Positions 32,696-41,841 of a DNA stretch of 64,000 nt are shown one piece after another. The number at the start of each line of letters is the position of its first letter. Position 1 is the first letter of the stretch. The translations under genes were made by a program, and so were the position numbers. Location of the stretch: assembly GCF_030731595.1 (NCBI RefSeq), contig NZ_JANQTS010000082.1, positions 1 through 64,000 of the forward strand, read 5' to 3'. The notes beneath the pieces were generated by a model. That model was not told where the DNA came from and made no database searches. It was given only the letters and a program-made list of their open reading frames with translations. This DNA is from Yoonia sp. (GTDB lineage Bacteria; Pseudomonadota; Alphaproteobacteria; Rhodobacterales; Rhodobacteraceae).

Positions 32696-34543
32696 TTAGC
32701 TGGTGCCATGCGGCATGATCCGCAAAGCCCGCAGTGCATTGAGAATGACAGCCACGTCGATCACCTCTTGCAGCAAGGCGCCCTGCACGGGTGTCAGATA
32801 GCCAAAGGCCGCCGCAATCATGCCGGCAACCGACAGGCCGATGCCCGCGATCACACTTTCAACCGCGATCCGGCGGGCGCGGCGCGCGATCTCGATCCCG
32901 GGACCCAAGCGGTCGACCCTGTCCACCAGCAAGACCACATCCGCCGCCTCGGCAGAGGCCGCTGCACCGCGCGCACCCATGGCCACGCCCACATCGGCGG
33001 CGGCAAGGGCCGGCGCGTCATTCACCCCGTCACCGACCATCATCACCGGGCCATTCTTGCGCTCGCTCAGCACCAGCAGGACTTTTTGGTCCGGCGTCAG
33101 CCCAGCGCGCAGACCGTCAAGCCCAAGACCTTCGGTGACGCGCTCTGCCACATCGGGACGGTCGCCGGTGGCCAGCAGAATACGGCTGATCCCTTCGCGG
33201 CGCAGGCCGGCCAGCATCTCGCGGGTTCCTTCGCGCAGTGGGTCCGCCATGACAAGATGCCCCACCATCTGCCCGTCAACCGCGACAGCGACCATGACAG
33301 CACCTGCCGAAAGTGCCGGTTGCGCGTTCGCCCCTAGCCCGGACCGCTCTGCGACAAACCCGTTACCGCCAACGATGACCGCCTGTCCTTCGACGCGCCC
33401 CAAAACCCCTTCGCCGGGGATTTCTTCAACCTCGGTCGGCACCGGCAAGACAAGGTCGCGCTGCTTTGCTGCGGCAACGACGGCTTGCGCCACCGGATGC
33501 TTTGACGCCTGATCCAGTGCTGCGGCAAGGCGCAGAAGCTCAGTCTCGGTGATGTCCCCCAAAGTCTCGATCGACACGATCTGCGGACGTCCGTCTGTCA
33601 GCGTGCCGGTCTTGTCGAGGATCAGCGTCCGGATCCGCGCCATCGCTTCGAGCGGGCCTGCGCCTTTGACCAGCACACCAAAATGCGCCGCCCGCGACAG
33701 ACCGGCCACCAGCGCGACAGGCACCGCAAGGATCAGCGGACAAGGCGTCGCAACGACCAGCACCGCCACGGCGCGGATCGGATCGCCGGTGAACCACCAC
33801 GCCGCAAAAGCGATCGTGACGGTGACCAACAGAAAACCCAAGGACCAGCGATCCGCCAAGCGCGCCATCGGCGCTTTGGAGTGCTGTGCTTCTTCGACCA
33901 GCCGGACGATGCCCGCATAGGTGCTTTCTGCCGCAAGCCGCGTTGCGGTCAGGTCAAAAGGGGCGCCCGCATTGGTGGATCCGCTCATCGCCTCTGCCCC
34001 TTGGGACAGGCGCGCAGGCAGGGATTCACCCGTCAGGGCCGCGGTATCGAGAAACGCCGCGTCAGATGCGATTGTACCATCCACCGGGACCACATCCCCT
34101 TGGCGGATCAGCAGCCGGTCCCCCGGTGCGATTTCGTCCAGCGGGACATCTTCCAGTCCGCCGTTCTTGTGCCGGGTGGCGGTGCGCGGCACACGCGACA
34201 ACAGGTCGTGCATCTCGCGTCTTGCGCGGCCTTCGGCAAAGCTTTCCAGAAAGGTGCCACCGGAATACATGACCGCCACAACCGCAGCCGCCAGCGTTTC
34301 GCCAAAGGCGAGGGCGGCCGTCATCGACAGTGCCGCCACAATATCAAGACCCACTTCGCCCTGCCGCAGACTGCGCAAAATCTCGACCACAAGGGCCGCC
34401 AAAACCGGCGTTACACCGACAAACCAGACCGTACTGGCCAGATCAGCCCTGCCCGCCAGATAAAGCGCCAGCCCGCCCAGAAGGCCGCCGACGGAAAGCA
34501 GCAAGAGCGCTTTTTTCAGACGATCCGTGCCAGCATGCTCCAT
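32696..34543 (-). CDS. P1B-type metal-transporting ATPase with TPCP motif, no N-terminal HMA domain
   Basis: DKTGTLTDGRP phosphorylation motif, TGES, HP locus, MVGDGVNDAPAL; TM motif ATPCPLILAVPVAL; starts 6 bp after the apbE stop. Confidence 0.9.
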   Translation of the reverse strand: MEHAGTDRLKKALLLLSVGGLLGGLALYLAGRADLASTVWFVGVTPVLAALVVEILRSLRQGEVGLDIVAALSMTAALAFGETLAAAVVAVMYSGGTFLESFAEGRARREMHDLLSRVPRTATRHKNGGLEDVPLDEIAPGDRLLIRQGDVVPVDGTIASDAAFLDTAALTGESLPARLSQGAEAMSGSTNAGAPFDLTATRLAAESTYAGIVRLVEEAQHSKAPMARLADRWSLGFLLVTVTIAFAAWWFTGDPIRAVAVLVVATPCPLILAVPVALVAGLSRAAHFGVLVKGAGPLEAMARIRTLILDKTGTLTDGRPQIVSIETLGDITETELLRLAAALDQASKHPVAQAVVAAAKQRDLVLPVPTEVEEIPGEGVLGRVEGQAVIVGGNGFVAERSGLGANAQPALSAGAVMVAVAVDGQMVGHLVMADPLREGTREMLAGLRREGISRILLATGDRPDVAERVTEGLGLDGLRAGLTPDQKVLLVLSERKNGPVMMVGDGVNDAPALAAADVGVAMGARGAAASAEAADVVLLVDRVDRLGPGIEIARRARRIAVESVIAGIGLSVAGMIAAAFGYLTPVQGALLQEVIDVAVILNALRALRIMPHGTS

Positions 34544-34549
34544 GTCTGT

Positions 34550-35524
34550 TCACACTTTCATAGCAGTGGTGCTTTTGGTCTGCTCAGATGAAAACAACGG
34601 CCCGACCCCCATGCTGCGCAGCGTTCCCGCATCATCGCGTATCATGAAAAGCACCTGAAGTCCGTGCTGGTCTGCCAGTGTCGCGCCGGCATCTGCGCCC
34701 AAGACCATCAGTGCAGTGGCCCAAGCGTCTGCTTCGGCACAGGTTCTTGCGACGACCGTCACCGACGCGGGCGATGATAAAAGCGGCGCACCCCGCTGCG
34801 GATCCATCGTATGCGATAGGCGGCGCCCCCCTACAGTGACCCAGTGACGATAATCGCCCGAAGTCGCCACAGCCGCATCATGCAGTGCAAGCACCGAATG
34901 TGGCGCACGGCGGTCGGGGTCCGGCGCTTCTACCGCGATGGTCCATGGGCTGCCATCAGGCCGCAAGCCCAGCGCACGCATTTCGCCGTCGATGCCGACC
35001 AAACCGGCGGCAATTCCAAAAGCCGTCAGCGTATCGGCAAGCAGATCAACGCCGTAGCCCTTGGCGATCCCGTTGAGGTCCAGTGTGACAGGGGCAGTCT
35101 TTCGCAGACGCCCGCCCGCCACATCAAGCGTCAAGCGTGTCGAAATCGGCACCGGCGGTCCAGCGATGGCACGACTGATCTGCGCGGGGTCAGCGGCGTC
35201 AGGCCCGAAGCCCCATGCGGTGACCGCGTCTCCCATGCCGATATCAAAGGCCCCATGCGACGCCTCACCGATTTTGCAGCCCAGCGCGATCACCTCCAAC
35301 AGAGGCATGGGAACGGCCTGCCACGCGCCAACAGGGGCGGCGTTCAGGCGCATCAGATCGCTGAGCGGTTTCCACGTCGACATTTGCCCGTCAACCTCGT
35401 CCGCCGCCGCCTGCAGTGCCGCGTGCAGAGGGGCTGTATCGAAATGAGGTGCGCTGTGAAAGATCGCCGACCAGCGGGTGCCCATCGTGGGGCCGTTCAA
35501 GGCAAAACGTGTCGGATCAGTAGA
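34550..35524 (-). CDS. apbE: FAD:protein FMN transferase
   Basis: GPTMGTRWSA, DLNGIAKGYGVD, ATSGDYRHW, HTMDPQRGAP; overlaps end of reductase gene. Confidence 0.92.
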   Translation of the reverse strand, partial: STDPTRFALNGPTMGTRWSAIFHSAPHFDTAPLHAALQAAADEVDGQMSTWKPLSDLMRLNAAPVGAWQAVPMPLLEVIALGCKIGEASHGAFDIGMGDAVTAWGFGPDAADPAQISRAIAGPPVPISTRLTLDVAGGRLRKTAPVTLDLNGIAKGYGVDLLADTLTAFGIAAGLVGIDGEMRALGLRPDGSPWTIAVEAPDPDRRAPHSVLALHDAAVATSGDYRHWVTVGGRRLSHTMDPQRGAPLLSSPASVTVVARTCAEADAWATALMVLGADAGATLADQHGLQVLFMIRDDAGTLRSMGVGPLFSSEQTKSTTAMKV

Positions 35525-37724
35525 CATCTTCGACATACCTTCCTTCTGTCTTGAGCTTGAGAGTGGTCAGCCCCATGGGGGCCAGAATATCCGTGAACGC
35601 CTCTGCGACCCCGCTGGCCATGCCACGCCCGCCGCAGACCATCACGCGCGCGCCGTTGCGGATCAGGCGGGTGATTTCTGCGTGCTCGGCGCGCAAGGCG
35701 TCCTGCACGTAGTTCGGTTTGTTACCGCGCGAGATGGCTGTGTCCAGCTTGGTCAATTGGCCATCTTGCTGCCAAGCTGCGAGGTCTTCACCATACAGAA
35801 AGTCATTTTGCGGATGGCGCATCCCGAAGAAAAGATGGATCGCCCTTTGTCTTTTGTTGCTGCGAATGAACCCCGCCAAAGGGCCGATCCCTGTACCGGC
35901 CCCGATCAGGATCAGCGGCGCGCGGCCTTTGCCCGGTTTGAACCCGGGGTTTGGCCGCACAAAGCCGGTCGCGGTATCGCCCGGCGCAAGCTGGGTCAGT
36001 TGCGCCGAGCACAATCCGCTTGGCTGGCGCTTTACGACAATCTCGACAAAGCCGTCGCGCCGATCCGAGGCCAGCGAATAAAGGCGCGGGATCGCAGAGC
36101 CCTTGGGCACAATCCCCAGCAGATCGCCCGCCGCGAACCGGGCAAACCCCTGCCCCGTCAACCGCTGCCAGACTGTCACCTTCGGCAGCGCAAACCGCAG
36201 GATGGCTGTCGGGGCCTGCATTTCAGCCCCATAGTCCCGACGCGACACCAAGGTCAGCGTTTCGACCTTTGGCAGCACCGGCTCATGGGTCAGTTCCAGA
36301 TCAAAGCCAAGGACCTGACCAAGCAAGCGCCCCCAGCGCGCGAAATCCTGCGGCGACTGGCGGTCGATTGTGTCGAAAGGCAAAAGCATCCGCCACCCTT
36401 TGGCTTTGGCCGCTGTCTCGACCTGTTGCGCAAAACCGCAATAGTCGGGATAGCTGCGGTCACCGAAGCCCAGCACCGCTAGGGGCGCATCCGGCGCGGA
36501 CTTGAGCGCCGCGATGCGTTCCAGAAACCCAGTGGCAGAGGACGGCGCATCGCCATCACCGTAGGTCGCTGCAAGTACGACGAACTGCTGCGCCTTGGCA
36601 AAGCGGGCCGGATCGAAACCCGTCATTGGCGCAACATGCACACTATGCCCGCGCGCGCTCAGCGCCTTGTGGAGCGTCGCAGCAAAACCCCAGGTGCTGC
36701 CGCCCTCGCTTCCGACAAGGAGGATGGTATCCGCGCGCGCCGCCGCTTGATTGCCGGGTATCCGGGGCCTGCCACGGCGTCCGGCCAGCCACACCAGCGT
36801 TCCGGTGACACCCAGGACCGGCACGCCCAGTGCCATGAACCCCAGAACCAGCCCCAACAGGGCAGCGCCCTGCCCCGTATGCAGCATGTAGATCGTTTCA
36901 AACAGACGCTCCGAACCCGCCAGATCGGCCCAATCCAAGACCGCGCCGGTCCCTTGATCCAGATATCCGGTGCCCTGATCGGTCTTGAGCGTAAAAACGT
37001 CCGTCGCATCGCCGGGATAAGGGAAATTCAGCGCGCGCAGGTCCTCGACCGGGGTCTGTAACAACGGTTCGATCGTGCCGACCGCCACCCCTGTCTCGCC
37101 ACTCACGTCGGCCGGAAAGGCGGGCATCGATTCAGTCACGGGCAAAAGTTCGAAGGTGACCGCAGACATCCACAGCGCCGTCATAGCCGACAAGGCAAGT
37201 CCCACGACCGCGACCCGCGCGATCTCGACATGCAGACGGCCGGACAGCGGGCCGCGCAACGGCGCGAACCAGCGCCGCCAGCCACCGGCCCGACGCGCGA
37301 CAAGCAAAGCGCCCGATACCGCAAGAACAAGCATTGCTGCAGCACCCACCGCCATGGCGATCCGACCGCCGTCGCCCAGAAAAAGCGACCTGTGCAGATT
37401 GGTCAGCCATCGCTCGACCGGGTTTGGATCGGCAGAACCCACCCCTTCGCCCGTCGCAGGATCAATCACAGCCGACCCTGGCGTGCCATCGACAAACCAG
37501 TAGGCCGTGATCTTTCCCGATGGCGATTGCTTGATCTGTTCGACACCGGGATAGACCGACTGGATGCGCGCTGCGAGCACTGCAACACTCAGCCCGGCTT
37601 CTGCCTGCGGGGCTGAAAGACGCTCTGCCGCCGGAAAGACAGACAAGGCTGCACCGCTGAGCGTCACAACAACAAGGAGAACGGCAGCCAGAAGACCCGG
37701 CCAACGGTGCAGACTGCGGATCAT
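35517..37724 (-). CDS. PepSY-TM / flavodoxin / FNR-like fused transmembrane flavoprotein reductase
   Basis: N-term PepSY-TM (MIRSLHRWPGLLAAVLLVVVTLSGA), flavodoxin (VLAATYGDGDAPSSATGF), FNR (RLYSLASD, IGAGTGIGPLAGFIR, VMVCGGRGMASGV). Confidence 0.9.
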   Translation of the reverse strand: MIRSLHRWPGLLAAVLLVVVTLSGAALSVFPAAERLSAPQAEAGLSVAVLAARIQSVYPGVEQIKQSPSGKITAYWFVDGTPGSAVIDPATGEGVGSADPNPVERWLTNLHRSLFLGDGGRIAMAVGAAAMLVLAVSGALLVARRAGGWRRWFAPLRGPLSGRLHVEIARVAVVGLALSAMTALWMSAVTFELLPVTESMPAFPADVSGETGVAVGTIEPLLQTPVEDLRALNFPYPGDATDVFTLKTDQGTGYLDQGTGAVLDWADLAGSERLFETIYMLHTGQGAALLGLVLGFMALGVPVLGVTGTLVWLAGRRGRPRIPGNQAAARADTILLVGSEGGSTWGFAATLHKALSARGHSVHVAPMTGFDPARFAKAQQFVVLAATYGDGDAPSSATGFLERIAALKSAPDAPLAVLGFGDRSYPDYCGFAQQVETAAKAKGWRMLLPFDTIDRQSPQDFARWGRLLGQVLGFDLELTHEPVLPKVETLTLVSRRDYGAEMQAPTAILRFALPKVTVWQRLTGQGFARFAAGDLLGIVPKGSAIPRLYSLASDRRDGFVEIVVKRQPSGLCSAQLTQLAPGDTATGFVRPNPGFKPGKGRAPLILIGAGTGIGPLAGFIRSNKRQRAIHLFFGMRHPQNDFLYGEDLAAWQQDGQLTKLDTAISRGNKPNYVQDALRAEHAEITRLIRNGARVMVCGGRGMASGVAEAFTDILAPMGLTTLKLKTEGRYVEDVY

Positions 37725-37736
37725 GGCCGTCGCTCC

Positions 37737-38207
37737 TTACATGTCGTAGGTAAAGTTGGCGACATAGCGACGCCCATTGACCGGCGTGCCGGCACCCGCC
37801 GTCGTCAGCGGCACCGCCACCTCGTTTGGACTGTCACGCATGTCTTCGACCGCCGCATCGATGTGCAGCGTGTAGCCTGCATCAAACAGGGCGTCGGCCA
37901 GATCAAGCGTGATCTCGAGCGTCCGGCCCGACCCGACGCTGGCCCCGGTGATGCCATTGATTTCAGCCGTACTGCCGCCGGTTGCACGATCCCAATCGGT
38001 CAGGTGCTTGTAATACTTCGACTTTCCACCAGCCATCCACAGACTGCCGACATAGTCACCCGCGGTGTCAGTGACATAGAAGGCAAGATAAGCGCCATCG
38101 CCGCCATAGCTGTTCAACGTGGTTGTGAGAGTGACGGGACGTGCCATTGCAAGTCCTGGCATGGTCAGCGCGGTCGTCAGCGCAAGTGTTGCAAGAAGTG
38201 ATTTCAT
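37737..38207 (-). CDS. DUF2271-like periplasmic protein with NGITGAS motif
   Basis: Signal peptide, 156 aa, NGITGASVGSGRTLEITLDL; 12 bp upstream of the reductase gene. Confidence 0.75.
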   Translation of the reverse strand: MKSLLATLALTTALTMPGLAMARPVTLTTTLNSYGGDGAYLAFYVTDTAGDYVGSLWMAGGKSKYYKHLTDWDRATGGSTAEINGITGASVGSGRTLEITLDLADALFDAGYTLHIDAAVEDMRDSPNEVAVPLTTAGAGTPVNGRRYVANFTYDM

Positions 38208-38251: not shown

Positions 38252-38626
38252 TCAGTTCATCTTGACCGTCGGCTGCGCGCCGCTGCCGAAAAGACCGTTT
38301 TGCGGCGGTGCGACAGTGCCTGACGGGGCTGCGTTCTGTGCCGTCCCGATGCAATCATCGTCATCGTCGTCATCATGATCGTCGTCGTCATCATCATCGT
38401 CGTCGCAATCGTCATCCTCATAACGCGCGCCCGTCCGATATCCGTCGTCGTCATCATCATCGTCGCTCACAAGAACCAGCGGGACAGCGCTGCGGGCCGT
38501 ATCAAAGGCCGCCGCATAGGACTGGCCAATCGTCTCATCTGCATTGCGCATCGCACTCCATGCCGGAAGGCCAAGGACAGCGACCAGCGATGTCGTCGCG
38601 GCAAGAACGGTGAGGGTCTTTTTCAT
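38252..38626 (-). CDS. Secreted Asp-rich low-complexity protein
   Basis: Signal peptide MKKTLTVLAATTSLVAVLGLPAWSA then VSDDDDDDDGYRTGARYEDDDCDDDDDDDDDHDDDDDDDC; start moved to ATG at 38626. Confidence 0.7.
   Translation of the reverse strand: MKKTLTVLAATTSLVAVLGLPAWSAMRNADETIGQSYAAAFDTARSAVPLVLVSDDDDDDDGYRTGARYEDDDCDDDDDDDDDHDDDDDDDCIGTAQNAAPSGTVAPPQNGLFGSGAQPTVKMN
38349..38465. repeat. Trinucleotide (GAT/GAC) low-complexity tract within coding sequence
   Basis: Runs of tcg/tca on + strand encoding poly-Asp on - strand. Confidence 0.85.
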
Positions 38627-38670
38627 GGCAGGAACTCCTTTTTGTCTGCTGAGACGAATATGGTGCGCGC

Positions 38671-38690
38671 ACCTGAGCGCTTCCTGACGC
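38671..38690 (-). promoter_or_regulatory. Candidate response-regulator direct-repeat site GCGTCAGGAAGCGCTCAGGT
   Basis: TCAGG repeated 11 bp apart, 45 bp upstream of the Asp-rich protein start; 16/20 identical to the site at 39748-39767. Confidence 0.6.
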
Positions 38691-38760
38691 AGCACCACTT
38701 TCTGCTTCAGCTTGCGTTCAGGTGAAACCACCGGGGGTAAGGTCTTGGACCGGATGCCAT

Positions 38761-39411
38761 TCAGACGACATCGTCCGGTCCGGCTGCGCGCTTGTCGCCC
38801 GTGACCATCGCCCTTGCGAGGTTTTCATGATGGCGCACAGAGGCAAGAATGACGCCGCCCACATGCACCGCAATCAAGAAAAGCATCAGGTTGGCAAGCA
38901 CCTCATGCACGTCTTTGATCGCCCCACCATCGCCTTCGCGAAGGGTTTCCGCCACGCCATCCTCGTCCGCAAATGCGGGCGACACGATCTGCGGCATCTG
39001 GGGCAGCATCGCGACGCGGCTGGTGTCTTCCAAGAGCCATCCGGTAAAGGCGGTGCCCGAAAGCGCCAAAAGCAAAGCCACGATCATCGCGGCTCCTGCG
39101 GGGTTGTGGCCAAGATACCGGCGTTCCGTCCCGCGCACCATGTCGCTGACATAGGCCAGTGCCTTTGACGGGCCGGTCAAGAATTGGCGAAAGCGCGCGT
39201 ATTTTCCGCCCACGAGCCCCCAGACCAGCCGAAAGGCGACCAGTCCTGCCACCACATAGCCTGCAACCTCATGGACCGTATCCAGTTCCTCGGCGGTCAA
39301 ATAGGCCACGGCAAATGCGACAACCAGCGACCAGTGAAAAATGCGGATCATCGGGTCCCAGACACGCAGCGTTGCAGCGCCTTTATCTCCGGCTGTCGTG
39401 GTCGTCTTCAT
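38761..39411 (-). CDS. Cytochrome b561 / b-type cytochrome
   Basis: RVWDPMIRIFHWSLVVAF, HEVAGYVVAGLVAFRLVWGLVG, KDVHEVLANLMLFLIAVHVGGV. Confidence 0.88.
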   Translation of the reverse strand: MKTTTTAGDKGAATLRVWDPMIRIFHWSLVVAFAVAYLTAEELDTVHEVAGYVVAGLVAFRLVWGLVGGKYARFRQFLTGPSKALAYVSDMVRGTERRYLGHNPAGAAMIVALLLALSGTAFTGWLLEDTSRVAMLPQMPQIVSPAFADEDGVAETLREGDGGAIKDVHEVLANLMLFLIAVHVGGVILASVRHHENLARAMVTGDKRAAGPDDVV

Positions 39412-39700
39412 CGTCTTGATCCTCTTGCTCATGCTCGTATTCAAATTCAATCACCGCCAAGGTCTGGGGATGCAGCATGACCTCGATCCAGCGGCCCGCA
39501 GCGTCGCGGCCATGGATTTTATAGCATCCGTCATCAATCTTGATCCGGGTCACGGTCCAGCCATTGTCGGCAATCAACTGCGCGACCGCTTCACGCGGTT
39601 GCCAATCGGCCATCGGTACAAAGCAATGGTTGTCATCGGCAAGCGCGGCAGCCGTCGGCAGCACGCATATCAAAGCCAGCATTGTCAGTATCTTCTTCAT
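39383..39700 (-). CDS. Exported PepSY-domain protein with acidic C-terminal tail
   Basis: Signal peptide MKKILTMLALICVLPTAAALA; VAQLIADNGWTVTRIKIDDGCYKIHGRDAAGRWIEVMLHPQTLAVIEFEYEHEQEDQDDEDDHD. Confidence 0.82.
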   Translation of the reverse strand: MKKILTMLALICVLPTAAALADDNHCFVPMADWQPREAVAQLIADNGWTVTRIKIDDGCYKIHGRDAAGRWIEVMLHPQTLAVIEFEYEHEQEDQDDEDDHDSRR

Positions 39701-39747
39701 ACGGCACACTCCGGGCTGCGATCCTATTTGCAAACCTTGCCCGTTCC

Positions 39748-39767
39748 ACCTGACAGGTTCCTGAAGC
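39748..39767 (-). promoter_or_regulatory. Candidate response-regulator direct-repeat site GCTTCAGGAACCTGTCAGGT
   Basis: TCAGG repeats 11 bp apart in divergent PepSY/response-regulator promoter, 48 bp upstream of the PepSY start. Confidence 0.6.
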
Positions 39768-39844
39768 GCGGGGGCTGATGCACGTCAGCTTTGCGTAAGC
39801 TTGGCTGGTAAAGAAGGATCACCTGACAAAGGAGCCAAACCGCG

Positions 39845-40504
39845 ATGCGTGTCCTGCTGATCGAGGATGATACTGTTCTAGGCGCTGCGGTGCGCGACCA
39901 GATCGTGGCCGACGGCCAGTCGGTGGACTGGGTGACGCGCCTTGATGCGGCAGCCGAGGCGATGGCCGTTGCCGCCTATGATCTGGTCTTGCTTGACCTC
40001 ATGCTGCCCGATGGCCGTGGGATCGGCTTTCTGAAGGGACTGCGGCAAAGGGGCGATGTCACCGCAGTGATTATCCTGACCGCCCTTGACCAGATTTCGG
40101 ACCGGATCGAGGGGCTGAATGCTGGCGCGGATGATTATCTTGTCAAACCCTTCGACCTTTCGGAACTCTCTGCCCGGATCGGATCGGTGGCGCGGCGCTA
40201 CTCTGGCAATCCGAACCCGATCATCACCCATGGCGCGCTTGAGGTCGATCTTGCGTCTCGCAGCATCTTCCGGGATGGCAAGCCCGTGCAACTGACCGCA
40301 CGCGAATGGGCCTTGTTCGAGGCGTTCCTGTCCCGCCCCGGTCAGCTTTTGTCAAAGGCGCAGCTTGAGGACAAACTCTATGCCTTCGGGGTCGAAATCG
40401 ACAGCAACACGATCGAAGTCCACATCAGCCGCCTGCGCAAGAAACTGGGCGCTGATGTTGTGCTGACAGAGCGCGGGATGGGCTACCGATTGGGCGCGCC
40501 ATGA
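39845..40504 (+). CDS. OmpR/PhoB-family response regulator
   Basis: LLIEDDTVLGAAV, LLDLMLPDGRG, winged helix LTAREWALFEAFLSRPGQLLSKAQL..EVHISRLRKKLG. Confidence 0.93.
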   Translation: MRVLLIEDDTVLGAAVRDQIVADGQSVDWVTRLDAAAEAMAVAAYDLVLLDLMLPDGRGIGFLKGLRQRGDVTAVIILTALDQISDRIEGLNAGADDYLVKPFDLSELSARIGSVARRYSGNPNPIITHGALEVDLASRSIFRDGKPVQLTAREWALFEAFLSRPGQLLSKAQLEDKLYAFGVEIDSNTIEVHISRLRKKLGADVVLTERGMGYRLGAP

Positions 40505-41841
40505 GGCTGGCGCGTAGCCTTCAGGCCCGTCTGGGGCTGTCGCTGGGTTTTGTGCTGACATGCCTTTGGGTCGGCACCGCGTCGGTCACGGGTGTCAACC
40601 TGCGACATGAAATGGACGAGGTTTTTGATTCCGCGTTGCAGGAAACCGCGCAGCGCCTGCTTCCTCTTGCGGTCCAAGAGATTGTCAATCGTGACGATGA
40701 CGGCGTCACCCAACGCCTTGGCGCGGTCCGCGAACATACAGAGTTCTTTACCTATATCGTCAGCGATGCGCGCGGGCGCATCCTGCTCAAGTCACATGAC
40801 GCCGATCCAGAGGTGTTCCCCCCCTATGACGGGGCAGGTTTCCGACAGACCGCAACCCATCGGCTTTACAATGACGATGCGTTGCAGGGCAGCATTCGCA
40901 TCACTGTGGCCGAACCGCTTGACCACCGCACAGCGGTGGCACGCGAAATCCAGATGGGTCTTGGCCTGCCACTGCTGATCGTGATCCCGCTGGCCTTGCT
41001 TGCCATCGCGCTGGTGGTGCGGGCAAGCTTTGCCTCGGTGCGCCGGTTTCGCGAAAGACTGGGCGCGCGCGACGCAGGCGACCTGTCGCCAGTTCCGGAC
41101 ACTGATATTGCGCTGGAATTCGCCCCCGTGACCGCAGCGCTGAATGGGCTTCTTAGCCGCCTCAAGGGGGCATTCGACGCTGAACGCAGCTTTGCGGCCA
41201 ACGCCGCCCATGAATTGCGCACGCCCCTTGCAGGCGCCATCGCGCAGGCGCAGCGGCTTCAGTCAGAGACCAAAGAACCTGCCGCCAAAGCGCGCGCCGC
41301 CGACATCGAGGCCACGCTCAAACGGTTGACCCGCCTTTCCGAACGCCTGATGCAACTGGCCCGCGCCGAAGGTGGCCGCCTGCGGCTGGATCAGGCTTCG
41401 GATTTGCGCGGCATTGCGGATCTGGTCATCACGGAAATGGCGCGGACAACGACGGCTGAAAGGATCACTTTGGCGTTGCCGGATAAACCCGTGATGTCGG
41501 ATCTGGACCCTGACGCCTTTGGCATCCTGTGTCGCAACCTTGTCGAAAATGCAGTGCGGCACGGGTCAGAAACAGAACCTGTCGCCGTAAGTCTATCACA
41601 AGACGGCACATTCCGTGTCGCGAACGCGGGTCCTGTCATCCCCGAAGCGACCCTTGCCAGCCTGACCGCCCGCTTCGAAAGGGCCGGAGCCGAGACAAGT
41701 GGCAGCGGACTTGGCCTAGCCATCGTCGCGGCCATAGCGGAACGGATAGGCAGCCGCCTGATCCTGCGCTCTCCGCGCTTGGGCCATGCAGACGGTTTCG
41801 AAGCAGTGGTCCAGATTCCCCTATCGGTGTCGGATAGCTGA
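40501..41841 (+). CDS. Sensor histidine kinase (QseC/PmrB/BqsS-like)
   Basis: AANAAHELRTPLAG, NLVENAVRHG, GSGLGLAIVAAIAER; two TM flanking a periplasmic domain; ATGA overlap with response regulator. Confidence 0.92.
   Translation: MRLARSLQARLGLSLGFVLTCLWVGTASVTGVNLRHEMDEVFDSALQETAQRLLPLAVQEIVNRDDDGVTQRLGAVREHTEFFTYIVSDARGRILLKSHDADPEVFPPYDGAGFRQTATHRLYNDDALQGSIRITVAEPLDHRTAVAREIQMGLGLPLLIVIPLALLAIALVVRASFASVRRFRERLGARDAGDLSPVPDTDIALEFAPVTAALNGLLSRLKGAFDAERSFAANAAHELRTPLAGAIAQAQRLQSETKEPAAKARAADIEATLKRLTRLSERLMQLARAEGGRLRLDQASDLRGIADLVITEMARTTTAERITLALPDKPVMSDLDPDAFGILCRNLVENAVRHGSETEPVAVSLSQDGTFRVANAGPVIPEATLASLTARFERAGAETSGSGLGLAIVAAIAERIGSRLILRSPRLGHADGFEAVVQIPLSVSDS

Follow-up and report, generated by a model that had tools for sequence, protein, structure and literature searches.

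Do the two operons of a redox locus in Yoonia sp. form one regulon, and is it the OmpR/PhoB-family response regulator encoded beside them that acts at their promoters? The question was pursued in a 64-kb window, which is the whole stretch of contig NZ_JANQTS010000082.1 analysed (64,000 nucleotides), and in other genomes of the family. The regulator gene (39845-40504, + strand) encodes a receiver and a winged-helix domain (Pfam Response_reg and Trans_reg_C), as in the OmpR/PhoB family, and the recognition helix of the proposed repeat binder reads SNTIEVHISRLRKK. It is followed by the gene of the cognate sensor, a histidine kinase with a 2CSK_N periplasmic sensor region, HisKA and HATPase_c (40501-41841, + strand). 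Divergent from the regulator, operon 1 on the - strand starts with a small periplasmic PepSY_2 protein (39383-39700) and continues with a cytochrome b561 (Ni_hydr_CYTB; 38761-39414). Operon 2, also on the - strand, comprises an Asp-rich periplasmic protein without Pfam match (38252-38626), a DUF2271 protein (37737-38207) with a TGAS flavinylation-type motif (the motif is described in PMC8238504), a PepSY_TM-flavodoxin-FNR transmembrane reductase (35517-37724), an ApbE flavin transferase (34550-35536) and a P-type (P1B) metal ATPase with a CPC motif (32696-34543), the latter probably ending the operon.

A first-pass annotation had reported matching 20-bp direct-repeat operators on the - strand ahead of both operons. 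Both 20-mers (38690-38671 and 39767-39748) were confirmed: 16 of the 20 positions are identical, TCAGG recurs at a spacing of 11 bp, and the repeats end 45 bp before the start codon of the Asp-rich gene and 48 bp before that of the PepSY gene. They are the only two matches of TCAGGN6TCAGG in the window, for which shuffled sequences gave a mean of 0.10 matches and none of 100 shuffles reached two. A scan with the degenerate pattern KTMAGS-N5-KTMAGS added two repeats on the opposite strand (38706-38722 and 39784-39800, both +), so that each promoter region has a back-to-back pair of direct repeats. The direct repeat itself thus stood, whereas a single repeat per promoter did not, and the half-site is better described as TTCAG/GTCAG, in 11-bp direct repeats of (C)TTCAG/GTCAG, than as TCAGG.

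Ahead of operon 2, the target-facing repeat GTCAGG-N5-CTCAGG (38672-38688, - strand) is paired at a 5'-5' gap of 18 bp (38672/38706) with TTCAGC-N5-TTCAGG (38706-38722, + strand). The latter is a strong match conserved in relatives, and it points at the cytochrome b561 gene from the 3' side of that gene; neither a gene that it could drive nor a -10 element lies in this direction, and we propose it as an auxiliary operator. In the divergent region, the PepSY_2/cytochrome b561 operon has the target-facing repeat TTCAGG-N5-GTCAGG (39749-39765, - strand), paired at 19 bp (39749/39784) with GTCAGC-N5-GTAAGC (39784-39800, + strand), whose end lies 44 bp ahead of the ATG of the regulator gene. As this repeat faces the regulator gene, it implies autoregulation and is a candidate autoregulatory operator. 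At the Asp-rich site, a -10-like hexamer CATATT occupies offset 26-31 relative to half-1 (38657-38662, - strand). The hexamer CAAGGT at the same offset of the PepSY site (39734-39739, - strand) matches TATAAT weakly, the conserved A being present, and for the regulator promoter the -10-like sequence TAAAGAA (39809-39815, + strand) has A at the conserved position 27. A search for sigma-70 promoters found none with a proper -35 at these sites, as is expected where promoters depend on an activator. At the gene-facing sites the -10 starts 9 bp past the repeat; hence, a -35 with 17-bp spacing falls at the end of half-1. Judged from the sequence, this promoter layout is that of an activator standing in for the -35.

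In the whole genome of 3.27 Mb, TCAGGN6TCAGG has 18 matches, and nearly all copies outside the locus lie within genes. Over the 26 spacings of TCAGG-N(0-25)-TCAGG, 441 matches were counted, i.e., ~17 per spacing, and the pentamer pair alone is thus not enriched. A genome-wide scan for this motif, recommended earlier as a check of the regulon, consequently returns background and has no specificity on its own; the motif was dropped as a regulon marker. With KTMAGSN6TMAGS, 47 of 50 further matches in the same genome were inspected (40 in genes and 7 outside, using a crude gene caller), and none of these 47 showed back-to-back pairing. One of the 7 is a TTAAG-type 11-bp repeat 42 bp ahead of a membrane-protein gene (L090:1714-1730, G000:C38), which may belong to another PmrA/BqsR-like regulator.

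For the comparative analysis, regulator orthologs with 57-87% identity were found in 33 of 149 other family genomes, each of another genus; an ortholog split by a contig end (G132) was counted beyond these 33. Their neighbourhood is mostly the same, with PepSY_2, cytochrome b561, Asp-rich, DUF2271, PepSY_TM reductase, ApbE and ATPase genes. Some genomes have several copies, and 36 divergent regions (35 loci plus the window) were searched for the strict repeat [GT]T[CA]AG[GC]-N5-[GT]T[CA]AG[GC], using dinucleotide shuffles as control. At least one strict repeat was present in 35/36 regions against 0.03 in shuffles, and strict repeats in both orientations were present in 25/36 against 0. When half-site pairs were sorted by period from 4 to 30 bp, only period 11 was enriched, with 60 pairs and no more than 2 at any other period. 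Using a PWM, the back-to-back pair was detected ahead of the regulator in all 36 loci, with a 5'-5' gap of 18 bp in 25, 19 bp in 10 and 34 bp in one. The consensus over the loci is C-TTCAG-S-TT-NNN-GTCAG-S-TT, single TTAAG or GTAAG half-sites occurring as variants. Spacers are low in information and the distances to the start codons vary among the family loci. A few diverged loci have gaps of 27-43 bp, and no clean helical period was found among the gaps of 18, 19, 27-29, 34-36 and 43 bp. It is the conservation at orthologous promoters which raises the repeat above chance.

Counting the window, 19 loci have a further pair ahead of the Asp-rich or DUF2271 gene, always with a gap of 18 bp. In L061, L063, L064 and L072 the second array is missing; there, the Asp-rich or DUF2271 gene follows close behind the PepSY gene, so that a second promoter is unneeded (the loci without a second array are also given as three single-operon loci and one rearranged locus). 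In L070, the gene-facing repeat stands alone at the second promoter. An A at offset 27, the second base of the -10 hexamer at 26-31, is conserved at 87 of 91 gene-facing repeats (34/36, 34/36 and 19/19) but at only 3/19 of the away-facing class (Fisher p 6e-13). Its rarity there suggests that the away-facing arm is kept as a predicted binding site and not as a promoter. This arm is the better PWM match of the pair in 18/19 loci, 15 of them scoring >20 bits. Most likely, the away-facing arm at the second operon serves as an auxiliary box which would boost occupancy or activation.

The specificity of the complete array was determined with a pattern of four half-sites at gap 18 with at most one mismatch, the reversed pattern serving as control. 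Across 298 family genomes (~1 Gb), 59 contained the pattern and none the control. Among the 150 family genomes searched for both array and regulator, the array was present in 32/35 regulator carriers and 0/115 non-carriers (Fisher p 1.4e-29, shared ancestry being ignored). The three carriers without the pattern have a gap of 19 bp, a gap of 34 bp or a contig end. G663 has the operons on two different contigs (L231 C17 and L232 C22), and an array accompanies each of them. A panel of 80 named loci was independent, being kept out of the PWM; in this panel the operator lies upstream in 15 of 18 loci whose regulator identity is at least 56%, and in almost none below; these locus counts are not independent, since the loci are related and partly plasmid-borne. 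Operator carriers in the panel include Hoeflea, Xanthobacter, Mesorhizobium, Reyranella and Marinobacter.

Several observations concern the spread of the locus. The locus is mobile: a plasmid search returned relatives of the regulator in 123 records, and for 77 of these conjugation is predicted. Many plasmids of Pseudosulfitobacter, ~110 kb in size, are examples. An ortholog with 85% identity is present in Paracoccus denitrificans (NZ_CP141053). Outside Alphaproteobacteria, operator-bearing orthologs occur in Marinobacter (L144, 70% identity) and in a MAG labelled Burkholderiales (L124, 80% identity), possibly by horizontal transfer, or by contamination in the case of the L124 MAG. In G672 (contig C9; L229:1093-1143), an array is located 58 bp ahead of the gene of a small secreted protein, with a SLAC1-family transporter adjoining. 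The hemerythrin-like match of the secreted protein is weak and stays below the cut-off (PF01814, E 0.0028); in G672, the gene of this protein may be a further member of the regulon. A complete four-half-site array in G132 (contig C259; L241:1847-1897) lies between an RluA-like gene and an apparent tRNA region, and no recognisable target gene was found at this array.

The nearest solved DNA-binding domain to that of the regulator is CarR/BqsR (9yfa), and the nearest full-length structural relative is PmrA/BasR. In PmrA, bases are contacted by Asn188, Asn196 and Arg210, and also by Thr187, Val192 and His195. In the alignment, Asn, Val and Arg are retained, whereas His195-Asn196 is replaced by Ser-Arg in the window regulator. 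Ser-Arg goes with the operator in the named panel (14/23 vs 3/57, p 2.4e-7). As a sole predictor of the operator the recognition helix was rejected, since 9/23 panel members with S-R or S-H have no upstream operator.

These data have to be weighed against other readings of the repeats. Chance similarity would fit the bare pentamer pair, which occurs at genome background, but conservation and co-occurrence across genera leave it a practically negligible probability. The two arms are mutual inverted repeats, as expected of an RNA hairpin acting as attenuator or terminator. Identity between the arms, however, is 0.85 at the half-sites and falls to 0.41 in the spacers; this equals the 0.41 of mismatched loci and means that there is no extended pairing between the arms. 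Since the arms furthermore lie upstream of the -10s, with neither an Rfam match nor a terminator-like site, a hairpin is extremely improbable. Binding of the repeats by another transcription factor, e.g., a shared iron or redox regulator, would agree with the resemblance of the genes to iron-related PepSY clusters which are Fur-repressed in Caulobacter and Shewanella (PMC8238504). We regard it as very improbable: all 115 family genomes without the regulator ortholog also lack the array, the array precedes the regulator gene itself, and the 11-bp direct-repeat geometry is that of the regulator's own family. In L121 (Yoonia), moreover, the PepSY gene is displaced by 2.3 kb, whereas the array has stayed beside the regulator.

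Two further alternatives accept the regulator as the binding protein. It might repress instead of activating, as a box over the -35 could block polymerase; this is rather unlikely, because the box precedes the -10 by about one turn, like the boxes of activated PhoB, PmrA and PhoP promoters, and a proper -35 is absent. It is likewise unlikely, though to a lesser degree, that each direct repeat is an independent operator and the pairing a relic of a duplication of the divergent region, the away-facing arm being functionless. Two arms are required in a divergent region in any case, and the layout is common to both arrays, which would agree with such an origin. A functionless arm, however, should decay, yet at the second promoter it is the arm that has lost the -10 which nearly always matches the PWM better, and its gap is invariant over the 19 loci. 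There is also a precedent for function, since the reverse upstream box of Salmonella PhoP at ybjX raises expression >8-fold (PMC3335776).

We therefore return to the regulator encoded at 39845-40504. It is highly probable that the repeats are its operators and that the PepSY/b561 operon, the flavin operon and the regulator gene form one autoregulated regulon. That the divergent OmpR/PhoB-family regulator governs one regulon, as the first-pass annotation predicted, is thereby well supported by comparative sequence data, namely the co-occurrence, the presence of arrays at both operons and the fixed, PhoB/PmrA-like distance to the -10. In the proposed mechanism, each array would hold two copies of (C)TTCAG-N6-GTCAG that point in opposite directions, at a 5'-5' gap of 18-19 bp, and each direct repeat would take one regulator dimer, head-to-tail. 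Following a signal perceived by the kinase, the dimer at the gene-facing repeat would cover the -35 position and recruit RNA polymerase in the manner of PhoB, PmrA and PhoP. One array in the divergent region would be shared by the PepSY/cytochrome b561 and regulator-kinase operons, and at the second operon the promoterless away-facing repeat would act as auxiliary box, presumably with cooperative binding. Besides the PepSY protein and b561, the predicted regulon would then include the flavinylated electron-transfer operon (Asp-rich, DUF2271, PepSY_TM reductase, ApbE and ATPase). A bolder version, put forward tentatively and with slightly more doubt than conviction, is that the operator is an obligatory four-half-site array with two dimers touching across the 18-19-bp gap, and that the half-site change from TTAAG to TTCAG/GTCAG co-evolved with the change of the helix residues from H-N or N-H to S-R. 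If this were true, the promoterless site would be needed in trans-orientation at the flavin operon.

Concerning the input to the kinase, its periplasmic part contains REHTE at residues 77-81. In kinase relatives, the final Glu and the following TY are widely conserved and the first Glu is not. BqsS has a periplasmic (R)ExxE Fe(II) site at residues 44-49 of the kinase, and iron sensing through a BqsS-like ExxE finds no clear support in motif position (77-81 vs 44-49) or conservation. The PepSY_2 protein resembles DbfQ and BqsP/BqsQ. Because DbfQ binds and controls its kinase (PMC12714742), feedback through the PepSY_2 protein is plausible, and by analogy the protein is a possible DbfQ-like kinase modulator. 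In G634 (contig C6; L236:4525-4941), the gene next to the regulator and divergent from it encodes an Asp/His-rich secreted protein. The C-termini of this protein (TVAPPSNGLFAPGAKPQAQVN) and of the window Asp-rich protein (TVAPPQNGLFGSGAQPTVKMN) are similar, which suggests a putative, undescribed small protein family.

Among known systems, BqsR/CarR of Pseudomonas aeruginosa (BqsPQRS) also uses a pentamer direct repeat with 6-bp spacer and 11-bp period, and PepSY proteins likewise adjoin its two-component system (PMC12714742). The site bound by BqsR is TTAAG-N6-TTAAG, one pentamer of which overlaps the -35, and clusters of four pentamers act additively (PMC4682146). Here, in contrast, the half-site is TTCAG/GTCAG, one base apart from TTAAG, and the recognition helix reads ...HISRLRKK instead of ...HVNHLRRK; the four half-sites stand back to back and not in one tandem row, and control is predicted for the cytochrome and flavin operons at the locus instead of many scattered genes. 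The PmrA (BasR) box, CTTAAG-N5-NTTAAT with the -35 at half-1 (PMC3973317, PMC4660055), shares the hexamer direct repeat, the N5 spacing and the 11-bp period, but differs by one base from the CTTCAG found here, and its regulator has His195/Asn196 where Ser/Arg align. In architecture II of Salmonella PhoP (ybjX), a box near the -35 is combined with a reverse upstream box which enhances transcription (PMC3335776). The away-facing arm has its best precedent in this promoter, although regulator and half-site are different and the pairing here is fixed at 18-19 bp at every regulon promoter. DbfQRS of Vibrio cholerae similarly has a small periplasmic PepSY protein beside kinase and regulator, on the opposite strand in some species (PMC12714742), but its regulon consists of biofilm and envelope genes, whereas an electron-transfer cluster is predicted here. 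Operon 2 corresponds to the PepSY-like flavinylation clusters with PepSY_TM, DUF2271 with [S/T]GA[S/T], ApbE and an NAD-binding domain (PMC8238504). In the open-licence PMC literature, no description was found of two-component control of PepSY-like/DUF2271/ApbE clusters, nor of this operator, this regulator or its link to DUF2271/ApbE. Compared with the BqsR/PmrA type, the one-base-shifted half-site, the fixed back-to-back array and the predicted local autoregulated regulon are new.

Through the proposed regulon, a flavinylated transmembrane electron-transfer cluster is connected with a two-component system that had not been characterised. The exact promoter elements given here could be used in reporters to find the inducing signal, and the four-half-site motif is specific enough to find regulon members in new genomes. 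The residue pair in the recognition helix is offered as a candidate for half-site specificity. Finally, the loci would provide a natural set of promoters for asking why OmpR-type regulators use reverse-oriented auxiliary boxes.
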